Virus record (IMG/VR): IMGVR_UViG_3300038418_000209
Span: 1-42,393 of that record
Source of the DNA: a virus
DNA: 42,393 bases
Reading direction: 5' to 3' (one strand)
The position numbers and the translations under genes are program-made. Below, piece after piece: positions 7,859 to 42,393 of the stretch (positions are counted from its first letter, which is position 1; each line of letters begins with the position of its first letter). A model generated the notes under the pieces. That model had not been told where the DNA came from, did no database searches, and saw only the letters and a program-made list of their open reading frames with translations.

Positions 7859-7860
7859 GA

Positions 7861-13494: not shown

Positions 13495-14085
13495 ATGAAA
13501 AACCTGATTTTAGGACTATTGTTTGGATTGCTTTTCTCGCTGGTCGGCTTCGGGCAGGAAGCCTACGTGGTTTCACTCAAGCCAGACGACGCGATGAAGG
13601 CGAAGGCCACCTACGACAAGTTGCAGCAGGCCCAAAAGGATTGGGCCGATACCCAAAAGCACATCGCCCTCAAGTACCTCATCGTCGAGCCCACAGACCC
13701 CGAGGCATCGGATAAGCACTATGTGGGAGAAACGGACACTGGGATTAACATCTCTTCGTCAGGAACGCTGTCGAGCGGCAACCTCGCTTTGCGGTATATA
13801 ACAACGATAGGCGGAAATCAATCTGAACCCACGAAAGAGGAGATTGCCCAACAAACCAAAGAAGAGAAAGCCTACATCGAACGATTCAACCGCGAGAAGC
13901 GCCAACGCAAAGGATTCGATGGGAATTGCTCAAACTGCCTGCCGAAGTTCGAGTTTACCCACGACTTCAAGTTCATCGTGCCTTCGAAGCCAGAGGTAAA
14001 GGCGCCAGTCTCGCCGTTCTATCTTTCGCCGGCTGCGAAGACTTTGACGACCGACGATAGTGGTAGTGCAGGCCTGCCGTGGTGA
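13495..14085 (+). CDS. Secreted or membrane-anchored hypothetical protein, 196 aa
   Basis: MKNLILGLLFGLLFSLVGFG is a Sec-type signal sequence with a Lys near the start and a long hydrophobic core. The mature part is helical (AMKAKATYDKLQQAQKDWAD), has CSNC, and ends with a Ser/Gly stretch. The ATG at 13495 is preferred to the GTG at 13489 because of GAGGTG. Its last codons run through a decayed palindrome copy (14066-14079). It sits immediately before the terminase genes. Confidence 0.6.
   Translation: MKNLILGLLFGLLFSLVGFGQEAYVVSLKPDDAMKAKATYDKLQQAQKDWADTQKHIALKYLIVEPTDPEASDKHYVGETDTGINISSSGTLSSGNLALRYITTIGGNQSEPTKEEIAQQTKEEKAYIERFNREKRQRKGFDGNCSNCLPKFEFTHDFKFIVPSKPEVKAPVSPFYLSPAAKTLTTDDSGSAGLPW
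14066..14079 (+). repeat. Degenerate palindrome copy in a CDS end
   Basis: GTGCAG-GC-CTGCCG; the right arm has lost the final AC. It precedes the 14089 gene as the intact copies precede other genes. Confidence 0.45.
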
Positions 14086-19661: not shown

Positions 19662-20240
19662 ATGGATAGGAGAGGGATGCTTTCAATTCTCGGACTAGGC
19701 TCGGTTTTTGCGGGGGCCAGCAAAATCACCTGTTCGCCAATTCGAGAGATCGAACCCCCCGACGAATTCGAGTACAGGGGATACCGAATAACCTGGACTG
19801 GATGGAAGAAAGGGCAGGACACAGCAGATCTGAAAGCCCAGTGGTTAGCCTACCCCAAAGAAGGCGATCATCGCCTTTACGTCAGCAACACTGGGACGTG
19901 GGGTTTGTTCTTCGACGGCGCTCACTTGAATTGCTCCTGGACTTGGGTTGACAGAGTTTCTTCCATTGACCAAAGCGCTGCTGGCTTGGCTTCAACGTGC
20001 GAACAGATGCGTGAAGCCATCATTCGACTCATTGACGATATCAACGAAAAGGGAATCGGTCCTGACAGATTATGGGAACCACCTTTGACTCATCCAGAGT
20101 TGAAGGGATACTTGGGTTGGAGGAAACTCAGTCCTGAACATTATGCCGTATGGGCGCGCGACGAGAGAATTGAGCAAGAGGGAAAAACTCGGATTCGTTA
20201 CGCGGTCGGTTTTCCACGTTTCGGCAGCCGTTACGTATAG
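19662..20240 (+). CDS. Hypothetical protein with Tat-like N-terminus, 192 aa
   Basis: Starts MDRRGMLSILGLGSVFAGAS, with twin Arg followed by a hydrophobic segment, then ITCSPI, which may be a lipobox-like Cys. The rest has a beta-rich part with many Trp (YRITWTGWKKGQ, WGLFFDGAHLNCSWTW) and a helical segment (CEQMREAIIRLIDDINEKG). It could be exported or membrane-attached. No family is recognised. It lies between the FmdB-like gene and the portal gene. Confidence 0.55.
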   Translation: MDRRGMLSILGLGSVFAGASKITCSPIREIEPPDEFEYRGYRITWTGWKKGQDTADLKAQWLAYPKEGDHRLYVSNTGTWGLFFDGAHLNCSWTWVDRVSSIDQSAAGLASTCEQMREAIIRLIDDINEKGIGPDRLWEPPLTHPELKGYLGWRKLSPEHYAVWARDERIEQEGKTRIRYAVGFPRFGSRYV

Positions 20241-25954: not shown

Positions 25955-26557
25955 ATGTCCACCAAGTACTTCGGGTCGCTGATTATGGCGACGCCCGTTT
26001 TCAACACCGGTGGGGGGGATTTCACCCTCGTCGATGATGCGACGCAGAAGAATTACCCGCTGGGCGGGATCTACGTCTTCCCGGATGCTTCGGGTCGGCC
26101 ACGGGCCATCACCTATGCGCAATGGAATCCGACAGTCGCAGCGACTTACGTCCAAGGCGGTCCAGTCTATTACAAGGATGGGGCGCGCAGCGTCATCACC
26201 AACGAGGTTACTGAGGCCGCGACGTACCTCGTGAACACTTGTTCCGCGCTATTCTCGTTTGCCGGGATTATTTTGAATCCAACCGTTCCGACGACCGGCG
26301 ACTTCGTGTTCATCCAGTCGCAGGGGTTCTGCGACAAGATCAAGATGCCGGCGGCAACCACGGCTGGTGACATCCTGGTCCTGACGAACGCAGTTGGGAC
26401 GGCACCCACGGACAACGTGTGGACCAGACTTGGCGGGGCCACCGACCTGACATTGCTCAAGGCATTGTTCGCGGTTATTTATGTGACTACCGCCGTCGTC
26501 GGTGGTGGGGCAGGGCTGGGGAGTGGCTGGATTGAAGGTCCTCTGGGCCTGATTTAA
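25955..26557 (+). CDS. Capsid-associated protein A (decoration/head-fibre candidate)
   Basis: 200 residues from the ATG at 25955 (ACGGAGG Shine-Dalgarno). Contains GDFTLVDDATQKNYPLGGIY, ALFSFAGI and a Gly-rich end GLGSGWIEGPLGLI. It is clearly paralogous to the next gene, with roughly half of positions identical by eye. Beta-rich, without signal or membrane segment. Position right after the coat gene suggests a decoration or head-fibre role; no family is recognised. Confidence 0.6.
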   Translation: MSTKYFGSLIMATPVFNTGGGDFTLVDDATQKNYPLGGIYVFPDASGRPRAITYAQWNPTVAATYVQGGPVYYKDGARSVITNEVTEAATYLVNTCSALFSFAGIILNPTVPTTGDFVFIQSQGFCDKIKMPAATTAGDILVLTNAVGTAPTDNVWTRLGGATDLTLLKALFAVIYVTTAVVGGGAGLGSGWIEGPLGLI

Positions 26558-26576: not shown

Positions 26577-27179
26577 ATGAGTACCAAAACTTACGGAAGC
26601 CTGATCATGCAGACCCCGGTTCTGAACACGGGTCAGGGCGACTTCACTCTGGTTGACGACGCGAAGCAGAAAAACTTCCCGTTGGGGGGCATCTACATCT
26701 ACGCGGATTCCTCCGGGCGGCCGAGAATCATCAAGTACGTCGAGTGGAACCCCAGCACCACACCAGCTTATTACCAAGGGGCTCCGGTGTACTACACCGA
26801 TCAGACACGGACTATCGTCAGCCCCATCGTCGCCGACGCGGCGACCTACTTGGTGGCTTCCTGCTCGACACTGTTCTCGTTCGCGGGAATCACTATGGGA
26901 GCGACGATCCCGGCGGCGGCGGGAGATTTCATCTTCATCCAGTCTGGCGGTTTCTCCGACAAGATCTTGATGCCAGCAAGCACCGTGGCGGGGGACATAC
27001 TGGTTCTGTCGAATGTGGCTGCGAATCTTCCGACGATCAACGTGTTCATCAGGGTCGCAGCGGGAACCGACCTGGGGATCGTAAAGGCTGCGTTTGCATG
27101 CGTGTTCGTCACCACCATCGCCGCCGTCGGCGGTGGATTGGGAAGCGGCTGGATTCAGAGTCCCTTGATGCCGATTTAA
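26577..27179 (+). CDS. Capsid-associated protein B (paralogue of A)
   Basis: 200 residues, the same length and architecture as its neighbour: MSTKTYGSLIMQTPVLNTGQ, GDFTLVDDAKQKNFPLGGIY, FSFAGI and GLGSGWIQSPLMPI. Arose by tandem duplication of the 25955 gene or vice versa. A terminator follows. Together they probably make a two-component capsid surface layer; this is inference. Confidence 0.6.
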   Translation: MSTKTYGSLIMQTPVLNTGQGDFTLVDDAKQKNFPLGGIYIYADSSGRPRIIKYVEWNPSTTPAYYQGAPVYYTDQTRTIVSPIVADAATYLVASCSTLFSFAGITMGATIPAAAGDFIFIQSGGFSDKILMPASTVAGDILVLSNVAANLPTINVFIRVAAGTDLGIVKAAFACVFVTTIAAVGGGLGSGWIQSPLMPI

Positions 27180-27469: not shown

Positions 27470-28471
27470 ATGGCTGAGACGTTTCTGAGCGTTTGGCGCT
27501 CCGTACTGCAATACAACAGAAGGGTCCCGGCGACGCTTTGCAGGACATGGGTACGCCAGCGCTACGAGCAGATTCTCGACCGTCGCATGTGGAGTTTTCA
27601 GTGGGGCCATGGCTGCTGGAACGTCAAGGCACCGATTACCGGCAACGCGACCATCGTCGCAGGTTCGAACGTTTTGACCTTCGGCGCGGGTGTGCTTCCA
27701 GGCGACAAGAGGATCGTGGGTTGGGAAGTAATGATCAACGGGCAGATTCCGTACTACATGGTCGTGGATGCCGACGCGACGACGGTCACTCTCGACCGAA
27801 TTTGCGTCGAGACCTCAGCGTCGAACGTGCCGTGCCAAATCAGCATGGTTTACTTCATGTCGGAGCAGCCCGACTTCGAGAAGATGATTGCCATCGTTGA
27901 TCGCCAAAACAACTGGCAGTTCCGGCTGAACGTGTCCATCGAAGAGATGGATAACGACGACCCGCAGCGTTCGACGGTCTCCCCGCCGACGCGCATGGTG
28001 CCCCTGGGGTTCAACGACCAGTACCTCGCCATGATTCCCGACAGTGTGACGGACTGCTACGGACAGGAAAACGATTCGCAGTCGCAACCGTTCTTTGAGA
28101 CTTGGCCCAGGGCGAGCACCGCGCAACCTTATCCTTATGTGTACAAGAGGAAGACGCCGAGCCTTGCGAACGATGGCGACCCCCTGCCGGGGTTTATCCG
28201 CGGGCGCGCGTTGTTCGAAGGGGCGCTTGCCGACCTGTGCAGTTGGCCCGGAACGCAGACGAACCCTAACCCGGCGAATCCCGTGCAGGCCAACGTGCAT
28301 GAGCGGAAATTTGAGGACGCGGTGTTCGACATGATTAACCGCGACGAGCAAGTGTCGCTGCGGTCGCTGACATGGGCGCGAAGCTACCGTAACTTCGCGT
28401 TTGCGGAGTTAGAGAGCGCCCGGTATCGTCAAAGTCACGTTGACGCGTCGCTGGTGCTGCAGAAATTCTAA
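27470..28471 (+). CDS. Putative head-tail connector or tail protein, 333 aa
   Basis: Begins MAETFLSVWRSVLQYNRRVP and has repeated Trp/Tyr-rich segments (WSFQWGHGCWNVKAP), a beta-rich centre (ITGNATIVAGSNVLTFGAGV) and a helical C-terminus. Location between capsid and fibre genes suggests a connector, adaptor or neck protein. No sequence family is recognised. Its stop overlaps the 3' end of the antisense HNH gene by 4 bp. Confidence 0.5.
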   Translation: MAETFLSVWRSVLQYNRRVPATLCRTWVRQRYEQILDRRMWSFQWGHGCWNVKAPITGNATIVAGSNVLTFGAGVLPGDKRIVGWEVMINGQIPYYMVVDADATTVTLDRICVETSASNVPCQISMVYFMSEQPDFEKMIAIVDRQNNWQFRLNVSIEEMDNDDPQRSTVSPPTRMVPLGFNDQYLAMIPDSVTDCYGQENDSQSQPFFETWPRASTAQPYPYVYKRKTPSLANDGDPLPGFIRGRALFEGALADLCSWPGTQTNPNPANPVQANVHERKFEDAVFDMINRDEQVSLRSLTWARSYRNFAFAELESARYRQSHVDASLVLQKF

Positions 28472-29412
28472 TGACTAGGCTTCGCCAAATTCGCTTTGCG
28501 CTTTGCCTCGCGGCGCTGGTATGTCTCCCAAGCGTGGCAGTTAGGGCAAAGAACTTGAAGGTTGGAGCGTTCGTTATTCCAGGGGACTCCATCCTTGTGG
28601 TCAACTTGGAGAACTTCGGGATGCTCTCTCCATCCGCAGATTTCACAGCATTCAAGCCGCCCAGCCTGCTTCATGGTGTCCCTGTATCCGTTTTTTCTTC
28701 TGCCGCCTCTGGATCGTTGGGAACAGCGATTGGAGCAGTACTTCGTCGTGCTTTTACTTATAGTGGCAGACTCGTATGGATTTCCGCAAACTTGGCAGAC
28801 ATAAGTTCTAAACTGCTTGGAAGCCCAAGATCCCTTGCATTCATTGGAACAAAAATTCGAAGTGCGTCCTGGCTGAACCTGCCTACGATAAATGATGCCA
28901 CAATGCTTGCAGGTGCGTTTGATACTCAGAGTGCTGGCTGCTCGTCTCGCGATGTCCGTACACTTACGACTGCACCACTTCCTAGTTTCGAGTTGGCAAG
29001 CAGGGACATGGAAGGAGTTTCCGCAGATTGGGCATGTGATGTCTCCCCCAGTCTTTTGGGGTCGGCAAGCCCTGTCCTTTTTAGAACTAACGCATTTTCT
29101 GCAGATGCTAGGAGATCCGCCGTGCAGAGCGGAACTATCCTTCCGGCGCCTGAAGTGGGAACCACACTGCGAGCAGATTACGTCTATGGACCATACAAGT
29201 TTCTTGTAACAAGACTTGGAGCAGCAGATCGAGACTGTCGCTCGAAGAGGGCTGACCGTGTAGGAGCGACCACAGAAAGAGCAGGACTTGGTGACTCTAT
29301 TCGACATCCGATGGGCATAGGAGCAGGCGATGGAACAGAATCTCGCCACTCCATTTTTCCTTGGGCCTGCACGAAACTCTTTTTTGCACCATTCACAGGG
29401 TTTGATTTCCAT
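28468..29412 (-). CDS. HNH endonuclease with multiple zinc knuckles, antisense
   Basis: 314 residues. Seven or so Cys knuckle pairs in series (CEWCKKEF...CSIAC, CSFCGRSY...CSKSC, CSQCG, CPICG...CSRKC, CKHCG...CSNEC, CQVCG...CSNRC) precede a C-terminal HNH site CEICG...LQVDHKDGVPWNNERSNLQVL-type with CPNCH. This architecture is typical of phage homing endonucleases and is like the HNH at 4639. GAGGTG precedes the ATG. It is the only minus-strand gene in the structural region and lies exactly between the connector and fibre genes, as an invading element would. Confidence 0.85.
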   Translation of the reverse strand: MEIKPCEWCKKEFRAGPRKNGVARFCSIACSYAHRMSNRVTKSCSFCGRSYTVSPLRATVSICCSKSCYKKLVWSIDVICSQCGSHFRRRKDSSALHGGSPSICRKCVSSKKDRACRPQKTGGDITCPICGNSFHVPACQLETRKWCSRKCTDIARRAASTLSIKRTCKHCGIIYRRQVQPGRTSNFCSNECKGSWASKQFRTYVCQVCGNPYESATISKSTTKYCSNRCSQRSRGGRRKNGYRDTMKQAGRLECCEICGWREHPEVLQVDHKDGVPWNNERSNLQVLCPNCHAWETYQRREAKRKANLAKPSH

Positions 29413-29438
29413 GGCAATTTCACCTCGGAGGTAAGATC

Positions 29439-31811
29439 ATGAAAAAGATTATCACGCTACTTGGATTGCTGTCAATCCTATTAGTTTCGTTTCCATCCAC
29501 TTCTCTCGCAGTTTCGTCTATTTCGGGCACAATTACCGACCCCGCAGGAGCAGCGTACGCAAACGGAACCTACGAATTTACCTTCATCGGTGGGCCGGGT
29601 GGGGTCAACATCGGGACTGGTGAAAGTGTTGCCCGGGTGGCTGGAGCGCTGAACGGCTCTGGTGCCTTCAGCGGCGTGACGCTGGGCAATACCGACATCC
29701 TGGGTGGAGGGTCGCGCTGGCAGGTAAAGATTTGCGCTGTCAACGGCCAGTGTTTTACGACCCTCATCAATGTCACGGCCTCTACGTCGAGCCTTTCGAC
29801 GATCTTGCAGGCTGCGGCTCCGCTTCTGACGGGCGCTTCGATGAGCGGGACGGCGGCTGCCAACAGCACCTTCGCGTTTGCGAACTACACCAATGCGTGG
29901 ACTTGGGGCGCTGCGACGGGGGCCTCGACGAACCCGTTTACGCTGACCGACACGACACTCAACACTGGAACCGGCTACCTCGAAAAGGTCATTACTACAG
30001 CCGGTTCGGCGCTGGGTGGATTCCAAGTGGTCTGCGGCAATCAGGCTAGTGCTGCGGCTCCAGCAAATGCTCCAGCTTGCGTTACTCTGACGGCTGGCAA
30101 TGGTGGAGTATCGACCGTAGCTGGAACCCCTGGTAGTAACGGTGGAACCATTACCAAAACCACGGGGACTGGCGGCGCGGGTGCCGCGACGGGCACCGGC
30201 GGAAACGGTGGTGAGGGCGACTTAATCACCGGAAACGGCGGCGCTGCGGCGGGCGTCGGGTCACTCGGCGGAAACGGTGGTCTGATTAAACTCTTGGGTG
30301 GCACTGGTGGTGGAACTGTCAACGGCGGAGTCGGTGGAGCGTTGACGATGACAGCTGGCCCTGGTGGAAACGGTTCGACCACAGGCGGGACTGGTGGAGC
30401 GTTGACCCTCGGGTCGGGCGCGGCTGGAACCGGCGGAACCGGAACGTCTGGGGCGGTTGCCCTCAAGTCAGGAGCAAGCACGGTTCTGGGCGTTACAGGC
30501 TTGGGCGCAATCACCATGGCTTCGCCGGGAACCAATCTGACGAACGAGTTCCTCTTCACTGGCACGGCACAGTCGGGCACTCCGGCGAACAGTGTGTTCA
30601 GCGTGGTCGATACTACTGGAAACACCACGACTGGTCCGCTGCTTGACGTTCATACCGTTGGGAATTCGACAGCGCTCCCTGTGCGAATCACCGCGCAAGG
30701 AAGCACTGTCGGCGTTCAAATGAGCGCGGCTGGTGTGCTCTCGCCGATCAGCACCGGTAAAATCGCTCCCCGGTGGAACGACGTAACGGCGGCTGGCGCT
30801 GCTCAGAGCATCGCCAACACGATTTACACCACGGCGATTTCTCATACGAATCCGGCGGGGGCGGCTGACGCCATCACCTTCAGCATGGGCACCGCAACTT
30901 CGACGAGCAACCTGCTGACGCTCTCCGACGGTGCGGCCAATACCGGAACTGGCTACCTCTTGAACCTGTCGCATGGTGCGGCCTCACTTGCCAACGACCT
31001 CAAGATTACCGCCGCAGCGCAGACTGGTTCGCCTTCGAATTCTCAGATTAACATTCTAGATACAACTTCCAATACGAACACCGGCCCGCTGGTCAACATC
31101 CACACGGCGGGCAGTTCGACGGCTCTCCCGATTCAAATAACGGCAGTGGGAACCGCCAACGGCGTCCAGATGACCGCCGCTGGCTTGCTCCAGAAAATGG
31201 GGAGTGGCAGCATCAAGGCCGACGCTTCAACCTCTCCGACGGATGGCTACTACTGGGTGCCGTTACAGGCTTGCGGTATGCAGTTGACGACCGGCGCTCT
31301 GGCTGCGGCCTCGACGGTTGGTCAAAACCCGGGCATCCAGTACGTGGCTGCAAACAACATGGTGCTCGGAGTTACAACTTCTGGTGCCGCAAGTGCGGTG
31401 ACAATCGACTGCGACATCTCGCCACCGAGCCGCACAACCTCGACAAAGGGAATCACCATCACCGGCGTCAGAATGTTCTACGGCTATCAAGGTGCCGCAA
31501 CTCCGAACAGCATTGCCGGTCCAACCTTCTCGCAGGTAGTTTATAGTGCCGCTGCTGGAGCGGCGGCAGCCACACTGACGACGGTTGGTGGGGCGCTTAC
31601 AACCACCGTTGGTACCAGCCATAGCACACCGGGTGCTGTGACCACGACTGGCCAGTGCTACTCGGAATTGACGACCTTCGGAACACCCTTCGTCGCGAAT
31701 AGCGACCTCACACGGTACACGGCAGAATTGGTCATCAACCATACGACCGCTTCTTTGGCAACGTATCAACTCTGCGGAGTGGCCGTGGACTATACTAACG
31801 GCGTTTTGTGA
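29439..31811 (+). CDS. Gly-rich fibre/adhesin-like protein with signal peptide, 790 aa
   Basis: MKKIITLLGLLSILLVSFPS with cleavage expected after TSLA is a textbook Sec signal. Residues 25-115 form a small beta domain (ISGTITDPAGAAYANGTYEF). About 210-345 is a GGX-rich stretch (GGNGG, GGTGG repeats) like the polyglycine-helix bundles of some phage adhesins. From 365 to 600 there are two copies of a unit containing NTTTGPLLDVHTVGNSTALP or NTNTGPLVNIHTAGSSTALP. The C-terminus has several Cys. Probably a receptor-binding or surface protein. A GGAGG Shine-Dalgarno fixes the start. Confidence 0.65.
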   Translation: MKKIITLLGLLSILLVSFPSTSLAVSSISGTITDPAGAAYANGTYEFTFIGGPGGVNIGTGESVARVAGALNGSGAFSGVTLGNTDILGGGSRWQVKICAVNGQCFTTLINVTASTSSLSTILQAAAPLLTGASMSGTAAANSTFAFANYTNAWTWGAATGASTNPFTLTDTTLNTGTGYLEKVITTAGSALGGFQVVCGNQASAAAPANAPACVTLTAGNGGVSTVAGTPGSNGGTITKTTGTGGAGAATGTGGNGGEGDLITGNGGAAAGVGSLGGNGGLIKLLGGTGGGTVNGGVGGALTMTAGPGGNGSTTGGTGGALTLGSGAAGTGGTGTSGAVALKSGASTVLGVTGLGAITMASPGTNLTNEFLFTGTAQSGTPANSVFSVVDTTGNTTTGPLLDVHTVGNSTALPVRITAQGSTVGVQMSAAGVLSPISTGKIAPRWNDVTAAGAAQSIANTIYTTAISHTNPAGAADAITFSMGTATSTSNLLTLSDGAANTGTGYLLNLSHGAASLANDLKITAAAQTGSPSNSQINILDTTSNTNTGPLVNIHTAGSSTALPIQITAVGTANGVQMTAAGLLQKMGSGSIKADASTSPTDGYYWVPLQACGMQLTTGALAAASTVGQNPGIQYVAANNMVLGVTTSGAASAVTIDCDISPPSRTTSTKGITITGVRMFYGYQGAATPNSIAGPTFSQVVYSAAAGAAAATLTTVGGALTTTVGTSHSTPGAVTTTGQCYSELTTFGTPFVANSDLTRYTAELVINHTTASLATYQLCGVAVDYTNGVL

Positions 31812-31841
31812 AACACACGACTACGGTGTGAAGCTGGTTTA

Positions 31842-31855
31842 GTGCAGTCCTGCAC
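31842..31855 (+). repeat. Palindromic intergenic repeat, copy 10
   Basis: Perfect GTGCAG-NN-CTGCAC directly followed by GGAGG and the ATG at 31867. Confidence 0.9.
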
Positions 31856-31866
31856 TGGAGGCAAGT

Positions 31867-32418
31867 ATGGCAATACGAACATGGGGGTATCTCACAATCG
31901 CCGCCACCGACACGCCACAGCCTATTTTCTCGTCAACCCTTGCCTCGGCCGTCATCGCAGCGACGGACGGCTTTGGCCAACCCCTTCCTGGGCCGGTCCT
32001 GCCCTTCACGAGTGCTGCGAAATTCAAGAAGGGCGACCGGCTCATGATCGTCGAGACCGACGGGACGTTACTGGAAATCTCCTTGATCGTGGGCATCTCG
32101 ACGAACAATGTAACCGTCGACAAGATCCTCCATTCGCATGCTGCTGGCGCTTGGGTCATTCTCCACGAGTCCATGACTGCACCCTACGTGCAATGCGGTG
32201 AGGCCAACACAGCTATAATCGGCATCGGCACGGGGCGCACGGCGAGCCTATCGACGGGCGCAGCGCTGATAGCGATTTTGGAGCCTACCGTCGCGGGAGT
32301 CCAACCCGAGGAATTCTCCTGTGGCAACGTCTTCGGAGCGAATCCGATGAAGAGTTCGGACTTCTGGGTTGTCGGGACTCAGAGCGACAAGATCCTGCCA
32401 TCGTTTATCTCCACTTGA
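31867..32418 (+). CDS. Hypothetical virion-type protein, 183 aa
   Basis: MAIRTWGYLTIAATDTPQPI starts without any signal peptide, unlike its neighbours. It is beta-rich with AKFKKGDRLMIVETDGTLLE and ends with a mixed segment. It resembles the capsid-associated paralogues at 25955 and 26577 in size and general style but not in detail. The start is set by GGAGG after palindrome copy 10. Perhaps a decoration protein. Confidence 0.5.
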   Translation: MAIRTWGYLTIAATDTPQPIFSSTLASAVIAATDGFGQPLPGPVLPFTSAAKFKKGDRLMIVETDGTLLEISLIVGISTNNVTVDKILHSHAAGAWVILHESMTAPYVQCGEANTAIIGIGTGRTASLSTGAALIAILEPTVAGVQPEEFSCGNVFGANPMKSSDFWVVGTQSDKILPSFIST

Positions 32419-32429
32419 GGGGGGAGCCA

Positions 32430-33530
32430 ATGAGGAAAATTGCATATTTTTTTGTTGCGGTGGCTCTCTCCGCTGCGTTGGCGCTTGGACAGACTCACAC
32501 CGGAGGGGGCGCGGGCGGGGGAGTGGCCGGCAACCTCTCGACGCTTACCAACCCCACGGCGATCAACCTGTCGACGCTAACCTTTGCTGGTGCCGCAGGG
32601 ATCACAGCGGGAGGCACCAGCAACGTTACCTTCACGCCGGGGACTGGAGGCAAGACCATCGTAACAGGCGAGCTTGACGTAGGCTCTCTTGTGAGCAACG
32701 ACGGCTTCAACTCCAGCTTCAGCTTCACCGCAGGCGCAAGCGGATTTCACGCTCCGATAGCGAGCATTATCCAGTTTCAGCCCCCCGCCTCGATAACCGG
32801 GCATAACCGGGTGCTGGCAGGTGTGGCCCCCAGCGTCATATCATTTCCAGTATGGAGCGCCGGAGTCAATGGCGCGGCGACGTTCAATCCCACACCCACG
32901 GCAATTGGTGCAGCCTTTACGCAAGCTGACGTTGGGGTTTTGTTCACCGTGACAGGGTGTGGAGCGACTGGAACCATCACACAAGTGAATAGTGGCTCTG
33001 GCACAGGCGGAATCACAGCAATCGCGGTGGCGGCAGTGAACCCCGGCACTTCGGCGTGCTCAACTGGTGCAGGGCAGGCCATCACGGGTGGCCACGGCAA
33101 CAGCGCCACGGTGAATATCGCCACGGTGCTGCCGGTCAGCACGGAATCAATGGTGGCGGCTGCGTCTGTGGGAATGTCCGGCTTTGGTGCGACCTTCGAC
33201 GGTGGCGGATCGGCGCTTTCCACTGGCACAGCGTACATCACCATTCCGCACACTTGCACGATTTCCGCCGTCAACCTGCTTATCGACCAAGGCGCTGCGA
33301 CGTTCACGGTGTGGAAGATAGCAACTGGGACAGCTTTGCCAACAGTGACTCAGAATATCAGTACATCGGGTCTTACCATCACCGGTCAGACCGCGTCTCA
33401 TAGTACCGATGTCTCGGATTTTTCCACCCACACTGGGGTGGTAGCGAACGACATTGTGGCGGTTCACATTGTCCCCTCGGGTGGGGCGACGTGGGCGCAG
33501 GACTTGATTGAGTGTGACAGGACATACTGA
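32430..33530 (+). CDS. Secreted fibre-like protein, 366 aa
   Basis: ATG 32430 after GAGGGGGGAG; a longer TTG start is disfavoured. MRKIAYFFVAVALSAALALG is a Sec signal. A Gly-rich segment and fibre-type repeats follow (NLSTLTFAGAAGITAGGTSN), then a module with GCGATGTITQVNSGSGTGGI that recurs in other fibres here. The C-terminal domain is beta-rich with ISTSGLTITGQTASHSTDVS. Likely a trimeric fibre or adhesin. The stop overlaps the next ATG (TGATG). Confidence 0.55.
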   Translation: MRKIAYFFVAVALSAALALGQTHTGGGAGGGVAGNLSTLTNPTAINLSTLTFAGAAGITAGGTSNVTFTPGTGGKTIVTGELDVGSLVSNDGFNSSFSFTAGASGFHAPIASIIQFQPPASITGHNRVLAGVAPSVISFPVWSAGVNGAATFNPTPTAIGAAFTQADVGVLFTVTGCGATGTITQVNSGSGTGGITAIAVAAVNPGTSACSTGAGQAITGGHGNSATVNIATVLPVSTESMVAAASVGMSGFGATFDGGGSALSTGTAYITIPHTCTISAVNLLIDQGAATFTVWKIATGTALPTVTQNISTSGLTITGQTASHSTDVSDFSTHTGVVANDIVAVHIVPSGGATWAQDLIECDRTY

Positions 33531-33652
33531 TGATACAAATTTTGTTCGTCATATTTGAACTTATTATTATCGCCGCTACTGCGGGGATTTGCCATTACGA
33601 GGTAACCCGTATTTGGGGAAAGCGAGTTGGGGGGAAAACCCATGAAAAATAA
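33530..33652 (+). CDS. Small membrane protein, 40 aa
   Basis: MIQILFVIFELIIIAATAGI is one hydrophobic helix followed by a short basic tail (HYEVTRIWGKRVGGKTHEK). It overlaps the preceding stop by 1 nt and the following ATG by 11 nt, so it is wedged between two secreted fibre genes. Unrecognised; the tight coupling supports expression. Confidence 0.5.
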   Translation: MIQILFVIFELIIIAATAGICHYEVTRIWGKRVGGKTHEK

Positions 33653-35651
33653 ACTGAAGGCTCTCATTCTGGCCTGCCTCCTGCTTGCTTCGCCGTGCTT
33701 CGCCGTGAATCTGACCCAGAACCTTGTGAACTGGGAACTCAACGCCTCAGCGACGGCAGCGGATGTAAATGGCGGGGGATTCGATTGGGGCAACGCCAAC
33801 TTCCTGACAGACCTAGCCTGTACCACGGCGACCGGGAATACACCCGATTGCTCGTCAGCGTCCATCACTTTCGTTCAGGCCGATGCACTGCACTGGATAT
33901 TTGTGAAGTCTGGCACACACTGGGCTCCCGGCTGGTATTACATCACTGACGCCTGTGTTTCCAGCGTGTGGCAGCCTGCCGGGTCGGGAGCCTGTACCAC
34001 GGGCCACATTCGTATGAATGCCGCCAGCGGCGCGGCGGTGCAGCAAAACACCACAGTGGGCTTGCCGAGTCCCGCCTACGTTGCTAACACGGTGGCAGGG
34101 ATGTCCTCGGATGCAACGGCATCACTCACGGCTGGCACCTTTGGAGTGGATTACAGCCAAGCGACGGCTGCGATTACCAACGATACCGATCTTGGCTGCA
34201 CCAACGCCGCGCCATCCGTTTGCACATCTACGAATAAAGCTTTCGGTTTGAGAATGGTTGGCAACGTAGTTCACATCACCACAACTGGAACGGGAGCACA
34301 TTTCTTGGTGGGCTGGTACGAGGTCGTCTCCGTCTCTGGAGTGAATGCCACCTTGGACCGCAATGCCACAGACGGAGTATCAGCAGGTGTGGCTGGCACC
34401 TTCTACGTCGGCGGGGCAATCGGTTTGGGAAATGCCTTGGACCCTACAGTTTTTGCGCAAGGATATGCCACGGGAGTCACCGCAAACCGTTTCTTCATCA
34501 AATATGGAAGCTACACTTTAGGGGCAAACCTTACTGGTCAAACCGTGGGTCTGGCTGAGGCCCCTATGGTGGTTGAAGGCTACAATTCACTGCGTGGCGA
34601 TAGGCCGACTGGGGCCAATCGTCCCACCATCACCGTTTCGTCAACCTACGGGTTTGCCCTTACTAGTTATTGGGATGTTTACAACCTCATCTTAACTGGT
34701 TCCACTACTAGTTCTCCTCTGTCAATTGGCATTGGAGGTAAAGCCACAAATATCAAGGCAGTTCAAACTAGCACCACGGCTGCCGCCCATGCGATTACAG
34801 GAGTCACTAACGGCTTTTTCCTTAATTGTGAGGCTATATCCTACCGAGGAATTGCACTTTCTGTCAATTCTGCACAAGTTGAAGGATGTTATTTGCACGA
34901 CAGTGACATAGGTTTTTCGGCAGCAGCATCTCCGGTGGCAATTCGGAATTCAATTATTGAGAGCAATGTTACCGCCGCAGTTCAAAATACGGCGGTAAGT
35001 ACAAGCTTGTTTACGATTCAAAACTCTACGTTGTATGGTGGTGAAAACAAGACAGGTCTTGGGGTTAACCTATTTACAGGCTCTTATGATGTACGAATTG
35101 TTGACTCGATTCTCTATGGTTTTACTACGGGAATCACTCACGCCGATGCGAGTCAGACCGGCGGATATGACGACTACAACGACTTTTACGATAACACCAC
35201 TGCTGCGACGAATTGGCAGAAGGGGATTCACGATCTTGCTCTAAATCCAACCTTTACGAACGTTGCTCAGTATACCGGAAGCGGAGCTAGCACGACTACT
35301 GGCACGTTAACCGATGCTGCCGTGGATTTCACCACCTATGGCATCGTGGGAAATCAGGATTTTGTTAACGTGACTGCGGGCGGAACTCTCAATCTAGGAC
35401 AGTATCTTATCACTTCCGTGGCGAGCACGCATGTGCTCAACCTTAGTCCAGCCCCTGGTACTGGGACAGCGGTTACATACCAGATCACGACGGGTCGGAA
35501 CTTTATGGTAACCAATACAAGTCTGAAAAATGCGGGTTTCCCCGGTGCTTTCCCAGCAGGCATCACCACTGGATACGTGACCCCTGGCGCGGTACAGCCA
35601 CAGGTGACCGCTGCTGGGGCGAGCCAACATAACACGGGGTTTGTGCAATAA
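33642..35651 (+). CDS. Secreted beta-helix fibre/tailspike-like protein, 669 aa
   Basis: ATG 33642 with GGGGGG upstream. MKNKLKALILACLLLASPCF with cleavage after CFA is a Sec signal. The central part (residues about 320-560) has the short repeats of a right-handed parallel beta-helix: CYLHDSDIGFSAAASPVAIR, NSIIESNV, NSTLYGG, DSILYGFTTGI. This is the fold of pectate lyases and many tailspikes. Putative receptor-binding or polysaccharide-active protein. Stop overlaps the next ATG (TAATG). Confidence 0.6.
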   Translation: MKNKLKALILACLLLASPCFAVNLTQNLVNWELNASATAADVNGGGFDWGNANFLTDLACTTATGNTPDCSSASITFVQADALHWIFVKSGTHWAPGWYYITDACVSSVWQPAGSGACTTGHIRMNAASGAAVQQNTTVGLPSPAYVANTVAGMSSDATASLTAGTFGVDYSQATAAITNDTDLGCTNAAPSVCTSTNKAFGLRMVGNVVHITTTGTGAHFLVGWYEVVSVSGVNATLDRNATDGVSAGVAGTFYVGGAIGLGNALDPTVFAQGYATGVTANRFFIKYGSYTLGANLTGQTVGLAEAPMVVEGYNSLRGDRPTGANRPTITVSSTYGFALTSYWDVYNLILTGSTTSSPLSIGIGGKATNIKAVQTSTTAAAHAITGVTNGFFLNCEAISYRGIALSVNSAQVEGCYLHDSDIGFSAAASPVAIRNSIIESNVTAAVQNTAVSTSLFTIQNSTLYGGENKTGLGVNLFTGSYDVRIVDSILYGFTTGITHADASQTGGYDDYNDFYDNTTAATNWQKGIHDLALNPTFTNVAQYTGSGASTTTGTLTDAAVDFTTYGIVGNQDFVNVTAGGTLNLGQYLITSVASTHVLNLSPAPGTGTAVTYQITTGRNFMVTNTSLKNAGFPGAFPAGITTGYVTPGAVQPQVTAAGASQHNTGFVQ

Positions 35652-38600
35652 TGAGACTAAGATTCCTAATTCTTACCGCAGCGCTACTGGCTTTTCCTGT
35701 CCACGGCTTTTCTCAGACCTTGGCAATCGGAACGAACGATACACTGCCCACAGGTTACCTGGGTTCGTCTTACAGCGTTAACCTGACGGCTACTGGCGGG
35801 ACGCCTCCTTACAGCTTCGCTGTTACTGCTGGGAGTTTTCCTACGGGCTCGCCCACATTCGCCTTGTCGGCAGGGGGAATCAACGCCGTTGCCATCAACA
35901 CTGCTGGTACCACATATACTGTCGGTAACGTTCTTAAAGTGACTCAGGCTGGGGCGAGTGGTGGAGGATACGTTGTTACTGCCGTGGATGGTAGCGGCGG
36001 AGTGACTGCGGTTACGCGCATTTCGCCAGGGACTGGCTATAGCATCGCTTCTGGACTTGCCACAACCGTTTCACCGGCAGGTGGTACCGGCTGTAAGTTG
36101 AATATCACCGGCTTGGGCGGCGTCATCAGCGGGACGCCAAGCGTGGCTGGGACGTACACCTTTACGATCACTGTGACGGATGGAGTAGCAGCCACGGCTG
36201 TCAAGAGTCTCAGCATCCTGATCTTTGACCAGCCCCTTGATGTTTATGGGGGCTTAATCAATAAACCTTGCGCAGCAGACCCCAATCACACTGGCCATTT
36301 CTATACAGCCAAGATGAGCAGCCATTGGTATCTTTGCACGCCTGGCAGTGCTGGAACCAGTTGGATTGGCAACGCTTTCTGGATGAATGGTTCCTTCGTT
36401 CCCGGACAAATTGGAGGCGCGGACTACCAGCACGTCGTCAATACAACGCTTACCAACAATAAGTATGCAACAGGCTTTACCACCAACGGTACGTTGAACT
36501 GGGGCTTGTCGGTTACGCGTCGGGAGCAGAGTTGGGGAATAAATACCAATATTGATGCATTAACTAATTGGATTTTGCCCAATCAGACTCACAGTTCGTG
36601 GGGCACCAGCGATAGAACGAATCCTGTCCATATCCCCTATGTGGGCGCTGTTTCGTCCAGTCTGTATGCGTCGATTGATCTTAACGGCTGGGAGGCGGCA
36701 GCGGGTTATGGCCCCATGAAGGGTTACGCGGGGGCATTCAAGGTATCATCCGTGCCTGGAATTTACATGATGATAGCGGCGGACTTTTTTGACCCTGCGT
36801 TTGCTGCCTGGCTGGCCGGAGACCTTGCTGCCCCCAATGGCAACAGTTATAAAACCTGGCTGATCGGACCCAACACAAGCTATCTTCTGGGAATGATTAT
36901 GGACGAAGGGGACAACACCGGGGGATTCCGCGACGGAACTGATTTTCCCACCATCGCTCAGGCCAACTATCTGTACAAGCCCCCCGACGCCCATTGGGGT
37001 GTAATATCCCTGATTACCTCGCCCGTCTTGACGACAGCAGCCTGTACTACTGCCCCCAAAAACTATGCTTGTTCTACTCCGGGCCACGACTTCCTATTTA
37101 CACATACCGCATTCTACACCAAGGTGGAATTAGGTACCTGGGTGCAGCAGGCGCTTGATTCTGGTCCGAATTATGCCAACTTTGGTGCCCTCAACAACGC
37201 TTGGGGGTCGCACTATGACAGCTTGGGTTCAGACGCGGTAACACACACAGGGGAAGCATGTGCCACAGGGGATGGGACAACTGGCCCCTATACCTGCACG
37301 CTATCGGTACACCCGCTCACACCTCTCACTGTACAGGTTTTGGTGGGAGGGACGTTGACGGCGGGGGATGACGGCTCAGGCCCTCGGGCTGCAAGCCCGA
37401 CAGTTACAGGCTACTTCCGTGGAACCACTAGCAATGCTTACACCGGGACTAAACCGAGAAATCTTGGAACCATCAACTACACCACGGGGGCCGTTTCACT
37501 TACGTTTGCTACTACGGTTCCAGTCGGAACAGCAATGACGGTGACTTACCAGACCAACGGCTGGGGCACGGGATGGGGTTTGCTGGACGAAGATGGCAAG
37601 TGTCCCGCCAAGGCCAACGGGGGAACTACCTGCTGGATACCTGCCGATTACAACCTCACCCCGGCAACGCATGCTTCACCACCGGCGGGAACCACGGCAG
37701 CATTCATCGTTGACATGGACAACTTCCTCTATCACATGGCCAAAAATTACGCCAAGATCGAGCATGACGCTTTGGCCACGGCGGCCCCTGGAGTGTTGTA
37801 TATGGGTACCCAGTTGGGAAGTTGGAGTTCGCCCACGCGAGCGCCTGTGCTTAGGGGGTTTGGGGCATATGTCGATTTGGCATATTCACCTACTCTTCCA
37901 AGCATAGACCCATTGAGCGTCATCACCGACAATCAAGCGCGGGTGGATTTCTTTTTCAACAATTTGGGTGATATTCCCGCCTTTAATTGGGAAGGGTTCT
38001 ATGCTGAACCCGATTCTTATATGTCACCCTACACTCCTACCGATAACTATATCTACAGCACGCAGGCATTGCGTGGTGCTGGCTTTGGAACGTGGATGAC
38101 TGCGCTTTTCAATACGCAAGTTTTGTCTGGCGCACTTGCCGGAACCTACCCCATGGTGGGATATGGTTGGTGGAGCGCTTACTATGACTCTTCTCTTTCA
38201 AACTTCGGTTGGGTGACGCCCCGCGACGATCCCTATGATGGGGTTTCCTCCACGACCACACAGGGGTACGACGCCTGGGGCTATCCTACGGGCTGCCTGC
38301 CACAAGCCATGGTGGGGGCGGCGACCCCCTGCGAGCACGCCAACTACGGAGATTTTGTTGACAGTGCGCGAACTGAGAATCTGTGGATACTCGATCAAAT
38401 AGGCCAAGCTACCCCGCCCACGCCTGCGCTCGCCAGCTTGGATACATCATCCATGACGTTTCTCGATCAATCTGTGGGTGTTGCATCTATCACACAAACA
38501 GTCACGCTTTCCAATGTCAGCACCACGACTTTGAATATTGCGAGCGTCGCTGTGGCGGGGGCAGGGTACAGCATTACGGTAAACACTTGTGGCAGCACCC

Positions 38601-38809
38601 TTGCAGGACAGGCCAATTGCGCCGTAACAGTTGGCTTTACTCCGACTATGAAAGCTTCTGTGACCGCACCAATTACCGGGACGCTTACCTTCACCGACGA
38701 CAATCACGGGGTCGGGGGCAGCACGCAGGTGGTAACACTGAGCGGGACGGCGGGGGCTCAGGTGATGAGCGGTACGGCCAAGGCAAGTGGGACGGTGCTT
38801 GTACAGTGA
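35651..38809 (+). CDS. Secreted multidomain fibre with glycoside-hydrolase-like core, 1052 aa
   Basis: MRLRFLILTAALLAFPVHGF is a Sec signal, cleaved near FSQ. Then a putative-Ig domain (LPTGYLGSSYSVNLTATGGT...VISGTPSVAGTYTFTITVTDG). Residues about 190-900 read like a TIM-barrel glycoside hydrolase, with agarase/beta-galactosidase-like features (NFLYHMAKNYAKIEHDALAT, GVLYMGTQLG, FNWEGFYAEPD). The C-terminal 120 residues are a choice-of-anchor-D-like domain (SVGVASITQTVTLSNVST, CAVTVGFTPT). Such end domains are common in Acidobacteriota proteins. Probable polysaccharide depolymerase; enzymatic residues are only guessed. Confidence 0.55.
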   Translation: MRLRFLILTAALLAFPVHGFSQTLAIGTNDTLPTGYLGSSYSVNLTATGGTPPYSFAVTAGSFPTGSPTFALSAGGINAVAINTAGTTYTVGNVLKVTQAGASGGGYVVTAVDGSGGVTAVTRISPGTGYSIASGLATTVSPAGGTGCKLNITGLGGVISGTPSVAGTYTFTITVTDGVAATAVKSLSILIFDQPLDVYGGLINKPCAADPNHTGHFYTAKMSSHWYLCTPGSAGTSWIGNAFWMNGSFVPGQIGGADYQHVVNTTLTNNKYATGFTTNGTLNWGLSVTRREQSWGINTNIDALTNWILPNQTHSSWGTSDRTNPVHIPYVGAVSSSLYASIDLNGWEAAAGYGPMKGYAGAFKVSSVPGIYMMIAADFFDPAFAAWLAGDLAAPNGNSYKTWLIGPNTSYLLGMIMDEGDNTGGFRDGTDFPTIAQANYLYKPPDAHWGVISLITSPVLTTAACTTAPKNYACSTPGHDFLFTHTAFYTKVELGTWVQQALDSGPNYANFGALNNAWGSHYDSLGSDAVTHTGEACATGDGTTGPYTCTLSVHPLTPLTVQVLVGGTLTAGDDGSGPRAASPTVTGYFRGTTSNAYTGTKPRNLGTINYTTGAVSLTFATTVPVGTAMTVTYQTNGWGTGWGLLDEDGKCPAKANGGTTCWIPADYNLTPATHASPPAGTTAAFIVDMDNFLYHMAKNYAKIEHDALATAAPGVLYMGTQLGSWSSPTRAPVLRGFGAYVDLAYSPTLPSIDPLSVITDNQARVDFFFNNLGDIPAFNWEGFYAEPDSYMSPYTPTDNYIYSTQALRGAGFGTWMTALFNTQVLSGALAGTYPMVGYGWWSAYYDSSLSNFGWVTPRDDPYDGVSSTTTQGYDAWGYPTGCLPQAMVGAATPCEHANYGDFVDSARTENLWILDQIGQATPPTPALASLDTSSMTFLDQSVGVASITQTVTLSNVSTTTLNIASVAVAGAGYSITVNTCGSTLAGQANCAVTVGFTPTMKASVTAPITGTLTFTDDNHGVGGSTQVVTLSGTAGAQVMSGTAKASGTVLVQ

Positions 38810-38854
38810 GGTTTTGGATGAACAACAAGATCGGATGTGGAAGAGAGGGATTCG

Positions 38855-41800
38855 ATGTATTCAAAGTTAAGAATCTTTAGGTTAGCAATTATAGTTTTTC
38901 TCCTTGCCCTTTCTGGATCTCCTCTCTGCCAAGCGATGGAAGCTGTCCATGGTTTTTGCCAGGCTGGTGGCGTGACGATGACCGTCCCCGGCGGGCCGAC
39001 GCTCTCGCCGAAAGGGATGGCCACCTATCCAGGATGCCTCGTAACGGTTTACATCACAGGCAGCAGCCCTTACACAACGGCGACCCTCTACAGGGACAAC
39101 CTCGGGAACGGCCTGTCGAACCCCTTCCCGGCAAGTTCCACAACGGGAGCTTGGACTTTCTTCGCTCCCAATGGCCGGTACGATATCCGCATGAGCGGTG
39201 GCGGGATCCCGACGCCATTCACGTTGGGCGACAACATGGTGTTCGACCCGGGGAATACGGCTCCTGGACCTGACGCCTCGACGTATCCGGGCGCAGACCT
39301 TGGTGCCCAAGTCATTGCAGCGGCCGCTGGTTGCCCTGCCGCGGGCTGCACTGTCCACGCAGAAGGCATCACGACGAACTTGGCGATCAACTCAGCCCTC
39401 ACCCTCGCGTCGCCAGGGGGTGGCCCTGTTAAGGTGGTTTTGCCGATAGGAACGATCACGCGCGCATGTGGGGCTTCCATTATCGTCGTCTCTGGCAGCG
39501 GGATACAGGGGCAGGGCAAGGACGTGACGAAAATCGTATCCACCGGCTGCACAGACAGCGCCGTGACTCAGGCTGCGCCCAAGACTGCCTATGTCACCAA
39601 CCTGCTGTTCAGGGACCTCACGGTTGATAACAGTTCAAGCGGAACCAGCTTGACTGCGATGGCTTTTGACCTGCCGGGGGCGCAGAATGCCCTATGGTTC
39701 AACGTGGCAGGCCGAGCTTCTGGTATAGGACGGCGAATTGGCGGGCTCGCCACTGGGGGGAATGACTCCTACAACGTCGCCTACGCCTCCGACTTCTGGG
39801 GCAATACCGCACTCCCCGGGAGTTACGGCGACGACATGGAGGGCTACGCCAACTCTAACCACACCTTCGGCGGGAGCGTTTGGGGTTACACGGCAATCGG
39901 AAACGGCGGCTGGGGGAACTTCTACGACAGCACTGACATCGAATCCTCGAACACTCCGTTTGATACTCAGTCGGCAATTGGAACTGGTGGCAACGGCCTG
40001 AACGTCGTCGGCGCATACACCGAAAATGGCGTGGGCACCGCCATCATCCGGGCAGGCTCGAAGGGGAACTACTGGACCGGAATGTTCCCGGCGCTACTCG
40101 TCTCAGACCTCGATGCCACCTGTCAGAATTTTTACCAGTTCATGGGCAGCAATGCTTCAGATGGCTTTAACCCGGAGTGCATGGGCGTTCAGGATAGAAT
40201 CCAATTTGGGTCTGGGCCCTCTGGCTACAACGGCTCCTACTATATCCAGGGAGACCGAGGTGGGACCATCGCCTTGGAGGCAAAGTTTGACCAAGCCCTT
40301 AATCGCTTAGGCTACTACGGTGCTGCGCCCTTGCGCGTGGGCGAGTTAAGAGCACGCGGCATTCTCAGCTTGGGCCAGTTGCAGACCACCCAACTTGGCA
40401 CGCCCAACACGCCTGCGGCTGTTTGTAGTGGGGATGCTGGAGCAACGACCTACACGTATTACCTTGTCGGCCATGACTGGCGCGGCGGAACCACGCTTCC
40501 GTCTGCTGCATCTTCTGCTTATGGCTGCAACGCGACCTTGGGCTCATTGGCTTCGACAACTTCTACTTACGCTGCTGGAAGCGGCTATCATGCCAACGAT
40601 ATCCTTACCGTGGCGGGTGGAAGCGGAACGGGCCAAGTTAAAGTTTTGACCATCAATGGTAGCGGGGGCATCCTCACCGTATCCATTCAGACGCCGGGAA
40701 CCCTCTACGCCGATAACGTGGTTGAAACCCTGTCGGGTGGCTTCGGCTCGTCAGGCAGTGTTCTGGTGCGCTCCAACGTCGTCACCATCACGCCGTCGGC
40801 CAGCGACAGCGGCTTTTACACTTACGACTTCCTGAAAACGAACACCGCCACTGCCATCACGAGCCTTCTGGCTACCCGAGGGGTGCAAAAGGACAGCGGG
40901 CAGGCTACGGCAGCCTACGCAACTCCAACTTGGGATTCCACTGGCGACGCTATCATAGCGGGGAACCTCACAGTTTCGACGCTGACCTCGGGCAAATGCG
41001 TGCAGGCTGGCACGGGTGGTATTCTAACTTCGACGGCCGCAGCGTGCGGTTCTGGTGGAGGTGGAGGCGGCGGAAACGTCCTGAGTTCTGGGACTCCCAC
41101 AAACGGGCAAATCGCGCAATGGACTAACTCGAACACCATTCAGGGAATCTCGACCCTGCCGGCTGCGGTGCTGCCCGTGCCCACAGCCTCGACGCTTGGC
41201 GGCATCGAGTCGATCGCGCAGGTTCCCAACAATTGGGTGCAATACATCGACACCTCGGGGGTTCCGTGGCTCGCGCAGCCAGCCTTCACGGATATCTCGG
41301 GGATTGCCGATGCCTCGCAATTACCGCTGGCCACGTTACCGATTGGAGTGGTACTGGGTTCCCTGGATACTGGCTTTCCCAGCTTGACCTATGGCGTGAA
41401 CTCGATTACGGCAAATCAGCCCGTCACGGCGCCGGCGTTTGTTTCGAGCGACACGCATAACACAAATCAGAGTTTTGTCGGGGGTGTAGGCGGAGCCTAT
41501 GCCGTCGTCGCCTCGACGATTCAAGACCAAGCTCCGAGTTCTATCCAAGCTGCGGGGTACAATGAAGTCCGACCTGGAAACGAGCCGACGGCTGCGTCAC
41601 TTCTGATCTATGGGAATCCGACGGCGCACGTCACGACGAAGTCTTTTCTGCCAGGAGCTACGGCAGGCGACATCGCTTACTTTAACGGGTCCGCTTGGGC
41701 CAAGTTTGCAGGTAATACGGTTGGAACAAAGTACCTTTCGGAAACTGCGGCTGGCGTGCTTGGCTGGGGATCTGGTGGCGCAGGCGGCAGCCCTTCGCTG

Positions 41801-42393
41801 GACCTTGTTACTGGGGCAGCGGCCCTCGCCACCGCAACTGAGGTGGGGGCGGGCGACATCTACACATACAATGGTGTCGAGACAGCGGCACTGACTTATC
41901 CCTTTGTCATCCAGAACACCAGCGCATCAAACAATACTTCTGGTGCCCTGATTATCAACACCGCCGGCGCGGGAACCGGTCAAGTGCCTTTGGTCATCAA
42001 CGAGACGACGGCGGCCGGCAACTTCTTGAATTTGGTAAAAGGGGGAACCGTCACCAATGGAGTTCTGGCGGGTGGGACAAGTGAATTCTCCGTTGACAAA
42101 AATGGAAATGTTACAGTGAACGGAGATACGACGCTTACCACTGGCAGTGTAAAGGGAAGCGTTTATGAGGGTTCTGCTTCTACGGTCGCCACCTATTTTA
42201 TAGGCGGGCAGGATGCTTCTTCCACGGGCGGCATAACCACGGGAACCGCTCTTGTAAAGACTGGGAGCGAAACTGGCGCTACGGGAGCAAATGGCACAGG
42301 AGCGCTCACCCTGCACGCAGGCGACCTCACTACAAACAATGCCGGGGGCTCAGTCGGTGCGACTGTCATTCGTGCCGGCCGGGAACTCGCTGG
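38855..42393 (+). CDS. Secreted tail-fibre/tailspike-like protein, 3' end beyond the window
   Basis: Open for 1179 codons from the ATG at 38855 to the right edge. MYSKLRIFRLAIIVFLLALS with cleavage after CQA is a Sec signal. Residues 35-130 match a domain frequent at fibre N-termini (NPFPASSTTGAWTFFAPNGR, YDIRMSGGGIP). A beta-helix tailspike-like part follows (KVVLPIGTI...GSGIQGQGKDVTKIV). Further on come the GSGY...GGSGTG module shared with neighbouring fibres and Gly-rich fibre repeats similar to those of the 29439 gene. The product is probably the main long fibre; its end is not visible. Confidence 0.65.
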   Translation, partial: MYSKLRIFRLAIIVFLLALSGSPLCQAMEAVHGFCQAGGVTMTVPGGPTLSPKGMATYPGCLVTVYITGSSPYTTATLYRDNLGNGLSNPFPASSTTGAWTFFAPNGRYDIRMSGGGIPTPFTLGDNMVFDPGNTAPGPDASTYPGADLGAQVIAAAAGCPAAGCTVHAEGITTNLAINSALTLASPGGGPVKVVLPIGTITRACGASIIVVSGSGIQGQGKDVTKIVSTGCTDSAVTQAAPKTAYVTNLLFRDLTVDNSSSGTSLTAMAFDLPGAQNALWFNVAGRASGIGRRIGGLATGGNDSYNVAYASDFWGNTALPGSYGDDMEGYANSNHTFGGSVWGYTAIGNGGWGNFYDSTDIESSNTPFDTQSAIGTGGNGLNVVGAYTENGVGTAIIRAGSKGNYWTGMFPALLVSDLDATCQNFYQFMGSNASDGFNPECMGVQDRIQFGSGPSGYNGSYYIQGDRGGTIALEAKFDQALNRLGYYGAAPLRVGELRARGILSLGQLQTTQLGTPNTPAAVCSGDAGATTYTYYLVGHDWRGGTTLPSAASSAYGCNATLGSLASTTSTYAAGSGYHANDILTVAGGSGTGQVKVLTINGSGGILTVSIQTPGTLYADNVVETLSGGFGSSGSVLVRSNVVTITPSASDSGFYTYDFLKTNTATAITSLLATRGVQKDSGQATAAYATPTWDSTGDAIIAGNLTVSTLTSGKCVQAGTGGILTSTAAACGSGGGGGGGNVLSSGTPTNGQIAQWTNSNTIQGISTLPAAVLPVPTASTLGGIESIAQVPNNWVQYIDTSGVPWLAQPAFTDISGIADASQLPLATLPIGVVLGSLDTGFPSLTYGVNSITANQPVTAPAFVSSDTHNTNQSFVGGVGGAYAVVASTIQDQAPSSIQAAGYNEVRPGNEPTAASLLIYGNPTAHVTTKSFLPGATAGDIAYFNGSAWAKFAGNTVGTKYLSETAAGVLGWGSGGAGGSPSLDLVTGAAALATATEVGAGDIYTYNGVETAALTYPFVIQNTSASNNTSGALIINTAGAGTGQVPLVINETTAAGNFLNLVKGGTVTNGVLAGGTSEFSVDKNGNVTVNGDTTLTTGSVKGSVYEGSASTVATYFIGGQDASSTGGITTGTALVKTGSETGATGANGTGALTLHAGDLTTNNAGGSVGATVIRAGRELA

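Follow-up and report, generated by a model that had tools for sequence, protein, structure and literature searches.

Predicted Sec signal peptides on a recurrent module of tailspike- and fibre-type genes in tailed phages

Assembly of tailed phages is taught as a cytoplasmic process. Export of individual phage or phage-like proteins is nevertheless on record. Lys44 of phage fOg44 is described as a Sec-exported endolysin (PMC6116005), and Bdellovibrio is reported to export phage-fibre-like MAT proteins in which a beta-rich domain of ~130 amino acids (aa) lies right behind the signal peptide (PMC10769870). In Pantoea stewartii, a tailspike-like fold is described for the glycan-modifying enzyme WceF (PMC7949094). 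Exported endolysins and bacterial exported fibre proteins are already known; for exported tailspike or fibre sets of tailed phages, a literature search, with most subscription journals and preprints outside it, found no report. Here we analyze a module of tailspike- and fibre-type genes with predicted Sec signal peptides in the IMG/VR virus record IMGVR_UViG_3300038418_000209, the whole 42,393 bases of which are referred to as the window; its genes are named by start position. Like Lys44, the module products would be late phage proteins that start out with a cleavable Sec signal, but Lys44 is a lysis enzyme and neither a spike nor a fibre. The MAT proteins and WceF were compared by description only: the former share with the module the export of phage-fibre-type fibres and a beta-rich domain after the signal peptide but serve the bacterium that encodes them, and the latter, with its tailspike-like fold, is likewise a bacterial gene.

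N-termini were evaluated with an explicit rule demanding a net positive n-region, an uncharged core of 8-14 residues with a mean hydropathy of at least 2, and small residues at positions -3 and -1. Applied to known E. coli positives, the rule caught 7/8, PhoA being missed. Five plus-strand genes of the module, 29439..31811, 32430..33530, 33642..35651, 35651..38809 and 38855..42393 (the last truncated by the window end), all satisfy the Sec signal-peptide rule (5/5), in line with a preliminary description of this DNA that had assigned Sec signals to them. The same description had singled out 31867 and 33530 as exceptions and had noted export-type N-termini at 13495 and 19662; indeed, 31867 fails the rule, the 33530 open reading frame (ORF) encodes a 40-aa membrane peptide, and both 13495 and 19662 pass. 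When residues 2-40 of each of the five N-termini were permuted 2000 times, between 136 and 311 of the shuffled versions satisfied the rule (7-16%); composition alone thus does not account for five passes out of five. On this control, and on the rule outcomes in the window and its relatives, chance hydrophobic N-termini were dismissed as an explanation. A lenient scan, accepting any in-frame start within the first 60 codons, additionally flagged three window ORFs (7598-8140 on the minus strand, 28471 and 24832) and, in other loci, starts within the nozzle gene and other low-score cases, all of them judged false. A purine-rich stretch occupies the Shine-Dalgarno position ahead of starts 29439, 32430, 33642 and 38855; start 35651 has none but overlaps the preceding stop, and the starts of 32430 and 33642 are internal ATGs within longer TTG ORFs. 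Judged by these sequence criteria, the predicted Sec signal peptides are genuine and distinguish the module from the rest.

The same phage is represented by a 69,565-base contig, with 100% identity of the capsid and 29439 proteins. There the 38855 protein is complete (1306 aa) and is directly followed by a sixth signal-peptide gene (719 aa), after which come an endolysin (phrog_315), a membrane protein and tail genes, none with a convincing signal. The module is also found in a diverged relative, IMGVR_UViG_3300031949_000132 (L004; capsid 79% and portal 62% identity), the gene set of which is largely different. Comparison with relatives had been proposed earlier as a check, and the pattern is kept: among module ORFs of the relative that encode 150 aa or more, 8/10 satisfy the rule. 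One of the two that fail has a Tat-type N-terminus, MKRRNFIKLAAQ, carrying what we take to be the Tat motif; the other is the homologue of 31867 (L004:15131-15658, 45% identity), likewise without a signal peptide. The Tat-type member suggests that export, by whatever route, is the trait that has been kept.

Immediately behind the predicted signal peptide of 38855 (aa 1-27, cut between CQA and MEA) lies a domain of ~110 aa (38936..39271, plus strand) that sequence comparison identifies as a tailspike N-terminal, docking-type domain and that contains a Cys pair. Besides the relative, three further phage contigs, a phage-like contig from a single-cell genome and gp12 of the cultured phage Tunturi_1 contain this domain. 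An IMG/VR scan for it returned 34 loci, 30 of which have a strict signal peptide directly ahead of the domain; with repeats collapsed, this holds for 26/28 distinct soil-virus contigs, the strict-rule exceptions being L056 and a group of identical contigs, L061-L063, that by eye do look signal-like. In many contigs the exported-type gene often lies inside the tail cluster.

By tblastn, the domain has homologues in cultured phages infecting E. coli, Serratia, Erwinia, Pantoea, Pseudomonas and further hosts, in 42 records with the L066 domain as query (E down to 4e-8 outside Tunturi) and in 20 with the window domain (down to 1e-4), two Tunturi records being included in each. They are annotated as tailspike, exopolysaccharide (EPS) depolymerase, 'head-binding domain-containing' or 'prophage tail fiber N-terminal domain'. 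The head-binding and 'prophage tail fiber N-terminal' tailspikes, among them those of E. coli phages ECO1230-10, ep3 and Alux-21, Serratia phages MTx and MyoSmar and Pantoea phage Vid5, have a homologous N-domain (~35-50% identity over 45-65% of the query) and resemble the exported type in having the spike gene in a structural cluster. Of the 40 non-Tunturi records from the L066 search, 16 were fetched for a start-site check; three of these had either no annotated start or one placed too far downstream, and for them the open frame was read from its first in-frame start codon. The domain begins the protein in 16/16, no candidate start yields a signal peptide and, unlike the exported type, none has the Cys pair. 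Thus, the docking-type domain is bare in these proteobacterial phages (16/16), and in the soil group it is preceded by a signal peptide (26/28). A structural model of the domain was weak (pLDDT 60.7); with it, Foldseek retrieved phage tailspikes from viral models at E 6e-5 to 1e-3 and no match below 0.001 from the PDB.

A connection to cultured phages is provided by the nozzle-like protein of the 69,565-base contig. Its sole matches in a set of 50,697 phage records are Tunturi_1 and Tunturi_2 (34.8% identity over 28% of the query, E 1e-22), described as podovirus isolates on Tunturiibacter, a member of the Acidobacteriota (PMC11924767). This match is our one pointer to the host of the window phage, which would belong to the Acidobacteriota. 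In Tunturi_1, a phage of Tunturiibacter psychrotolerans X5P2 (106 features, two omitted as cut), 5/6 genes of the cluster between tail protein gp11 and the lysis region satisfy the rule versus 3/98 other coding sequences (CDS). The five are gp12, gp13 and gp14 ('tail spike') and gp16 and gp17 ('virion structural protein'), gp12 having the same post-signal domain as 38855; the three other passes are one 44-aa peptide and two lipoprotein-like proteins, gp78 among the latter. Tunturi_2 has, by reading, the same signal-peptide set, and both phages share their gene order with the window phage. In the siphovirus Tunturi_4, gp113 and gp114 have signal peptides, the latter protein sharing 50% identity with Tunturi_1 gp17 across ~660 columns. 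Counted over Tunturi 1 (part), 3 and 4, the rule is satisfied by 18/326 annotated CDS and by 6/40 CDS of at least 400 aa; these six, from Tunturi 1 and 4, all encode spikes or fibres. Thus, Tunturi_1, 2 and 4 resemble the window phage in their signal-peptide spike sets but differ from it in other gene content. The term 'signal peptide' is absent from the main text of the paper on these isolates, as is any mention of virion proteomics (PMC11924767).

Two annotation details of these phages deserve mention. Tunturi_1 gp78 (L096:3745-4947), labelled 'tail protein', has a lipoprotein-type N-terminus (LLLTGC), lies in the early region and is likely misnamed. The annotated start of Tunturi_4 gp111 (L043:36073-36433) seems too far downstream, as an in-frame upstream codon gives a signal-peptide-like N-terminus.

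A domain search of genome contigs gave a single match, the above-mentioned phage-like contig (L030, CAJEYI010000005.1; 47 kb), in which 5/5 module genes have a signal peptide. The phylum of this single-cell genome consists, among the genomes listed, mostly of genomes of 0.5-1.1 Mb, and a search of 379 genomes of that phylum found the domain clearly in this one only and weakly in one more. The single-cell genome was set aside as evidence for a host; infection, an attached virion or contamination may each explain the contig. Taken together, the predicted signal-peptide module is not peculiar to the window phage: it recurs in the diverged relative, in the isolates Tunturi_1, 2 and 4, and across many contigs of soil viruses.

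Cysteines also set the exported type apart. In an alignment of 30 exported rows (including the strict-rule failures L056 and L062) and 16 unexported rows, the first Cys column is filled in 27/30 versus 0/16 and the second in 30/30 versus 0/16. The mature part of complete exported proteins has an even Cys count in 24/29 (binomial p 2.7e-4; L030a, for which the cut site set by the rule counts one signal-peptide Cys as mature, was kept as odd), while among non-exported proteins having any Cys the count is even in 12/32 structural and 40/104 other proteins. Median Cys content is 1.83% in exported proteins versus 0.56% (Mann-Whitney p 5.8e-10), both p-values being optimistic, as rows in these sets are partly homologous. 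This pattern fits folding in an oxidising compartment, and the even counts together with the export-linked Cys pair argue for true export of the predicted preproteins.

Sequence comparison supports the signal peptides and their recurrence, the homology of the domain to tailspikes and the link between cysteines and export, and we regard export of the module proteins as highly probable. From this, we infer the following course of export and cleavage, disulfide formation, timing and virion attachment. The products of the five genes, and of the sixth beyond the window, would be synthesized late in the form of preproteins. They would cross the inner membrane by export, lose the signal through cleavage and, once mature, fold and form disulfide bonds in the periplasm, an oxidising compartment. 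Mature spikes would then attach, outside the cytoplasm, to the otherwise finished virion when lysis unites both. We consider such attachment the most likely outcome because the 38855 type keeps a docking-type domain directly behind the signal peptide. A virion destination is favoured by this retention behind the cut site, by the position of the exported gene inside the tail cluster in many contigs and by the infectious podoviruses Tunturi_1 and Tunturi_2, for which the annotation (whole genome and first 36 kb, respectively) contains no other large spike gene. In phage P22, the spikes join the particle as its last component and do so in vitro as well, which makes completion at lysis feasible. 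We give attachment to the virion after export an even chance, and the same balance applies to the complete statement, that is, that the tailspike- and fibre-type proteins of the module have been turned into Sec substrates that join the particle after export. That they mark a tailed-phage lineage finishing its particles outside the cytoplasm, with Sec-dependent (sometimes Tat-dependent) tailspikes oxidised in the periplasm and docking at lysis, is slightly more doubtful.

Several observations weigh against post-export attachment or weaken its support. Unexported tail proteins are also present in Tunturi_4, and the window phage has, among the genes that follow the sixth signal-peptide gene, one for an 832-aa repetitive fibre-like protein without a signal; exported spikes therefore need not be the sole receptor binders. 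The Tunturi_3 fibres and those Tunturi_5 fibres that were seen (50 of 309 kb read) lack signal peptides, indicating that export is not demanded by the host. Matches of the weak domain model to P22-type folds reach only Z ~6: the tail proteins of P22, Sf6, Pam1 and Pan3 are found among the Z 6-7 matches alongside unrelated beta-sandwiches, and 1lkt (Z 6.0), 2vky (Z 6.1) and 7sg7 (Z 6.2) are level with the latter. As to the cysteines, the second column belonged to the pattern that fetched L046-L079, leaving only the first as independent, and the preference for even counts is less marked in a second set, made up of neighbours and overlapping the first (28/41 versus 43/97 even). In addition, the module of the window phage lies directly before the endolysin gene. 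This position and the coexistence of exported spikes with unexported fibres in Tunturi_4 and the window phage would both suit proteins that are exported but never join the virion, acting instead at the envelope of the infected cell or being released. Such proteins might digest surface polysaccharide, mask receptors (against superinfection or loss of progeny to debris) or aid escape from the matrix. All export evidence fits this explanation too, the Bdellovibrio MAT fibres offer a precedent as described (PMC10769870), and members contain sugar-binding or Ig-like domains (CHB_HEX_C_1 in Tunturi_1 gp17, Big_2 in Tunturi_4 gp114). On the other hand, it leaves the retained docking-type tailspike domain to be accounted for, it would deprive Tunturi_1 and Tunturi_2 of a large spike, and lysis could free enzymes without any signal peptide. 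We consider a role at the cell envelope or after release, apart from the virion, a serious contender, at rather less than an even chance.

Two further explanations are improbable. The hydrophobic N-termini could remain uncleaved and serve in the virion, for instance as docking helices or as membrane-active segments at infection; the genes do occupy the fibre position, and hydrophobic N-termini by themselves are no proof of export. However, the N-termini differ in sequence yet have the n-region, the core and the small -3/-1 residues in common, one of them is of Tat type, the Cys pair and the even counts suit folding under oxidising conditions, and the bare homologues dock without such a segment, making this an unlikely account. 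Unlikelier still is that the module represents captured, moron-like cargo of host surface genes unrelated to virion spikes. ASH, Big_2 and chitobiase C-terminal domains in its members could be read in this way, and recruitment from host surface genes was an option put forward in the preliminary description. For the 38855 type it is not supported, since the post-signal domain is a phage tailspike N-domain that is bare in other phages, and host cargo was set aside here on this homology and on gene position. More generally, the module is located in the structural cluster across unrelated phages, and the 379 genomes of one other phylum gave one clear match only, in a phage-like contig. The C-terminal ASH domains, Ig-like in type, of the 35651 product and the sixth protein may nonetheless derive from a host.

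If true, the export signals and the export-linked Cys pair would point to a two-compartment virion assembly or to a new class of phage proteins acting on the surface of the infected cell. Both options are directly testable, as cultured phages of this type exist (Tunturi_1, 2 and 4). For annotators and for those expressing receptor-binding proteins, the mature N-terminus of such spikes would not be the encoded one, and cytoplasmic expression may misfold them.

The individual module genes are diverse. The 29439 product is a fibre-type protein of 790 aa with a predicted signal peptide at aa 1-24 (cut between SLA and VSS), followed by a beta-rich domain with a conserved C-x5-C common to the relative, where the homologue of this N-domain (L004:13815-15077) has a signal peptide too. 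INPHARED searches with the 29439 protein and with the capsid protein gave no match, nor did Foldseek with a weak model of the 29439 N-domain below 0.001. A likeness by eye to the N-terminus of the unexported Tunturi_3 gp15 was rejected, the hhalign probability being just 0.6%. Next come the 183-aa companion without a signal peptide (31867..32418, plus strand) and the 366-aa protein from 32430, the C-terminal part of which resembles phrog_35197 (unknown function); the 40-aa membrane peptide occupies 33530..33652 (plus strand). The 33642 product (669 aa) is beta-helix-like by reading only, and a Pfam search with it gave no match. In the 1052-aa product of 35651, Pfam identifies a C-terminal ASH-type Ig-like domain common to the sixth protein. 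A glycoside hydrolase in its middle part, a reading impression, was abandoned after searches of Pfam, PHROGs and the PDB found nothing.

Upstream of the module, 27470..28471 (plus strand) is, by its position, a putative head-completion or tail-type gene without a signal peptide; its homologue in the relative is 61% identical. ORF 28471-29442 (plus strand), with a rule-passing N-terminus, is likely spurious, as a zinc-finger/HNH-like ORF lies on the opposite strand. This Cys-rich, HNH-like ORF (28468-29412, minus strand), situated between 27470 and the module, is by reading probably a homing endonuclease. A signal on the capsid ORF from start 24832 was rejected as an artefact of the chosen start: in the relative, the capsid protein begins at the position corresponding to Met19. 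The N-terminal stretch of this ORF (24832-25884) mimics a signal peptide, and neither start in the window has a clear Shine-Dalgarno sequence. Outside the module, the small predicted signal-peptide protein is encoded at 13495..14085 and the small protein with an export-type, RR-containing N-terminus at 19662..20240, both on the plus strand.

The large terminase ORF (14787-18194) has an insert of the Hint/intein type (PF13403, aa 613-664), and the terminase of the relative (L004:1096-4383) has, by reading, a similar one. The DNA methyltransferase ORF (4404-6626) has family matches in two stretches (~aa 284-364 and 571-658) and perhaps carries another insert. Following the capsid gene, 25664-26557 and 26577-27179 encode tandem similar proteins that are decoration-like by reading, both with an MSTK-YGSLIM-type start.

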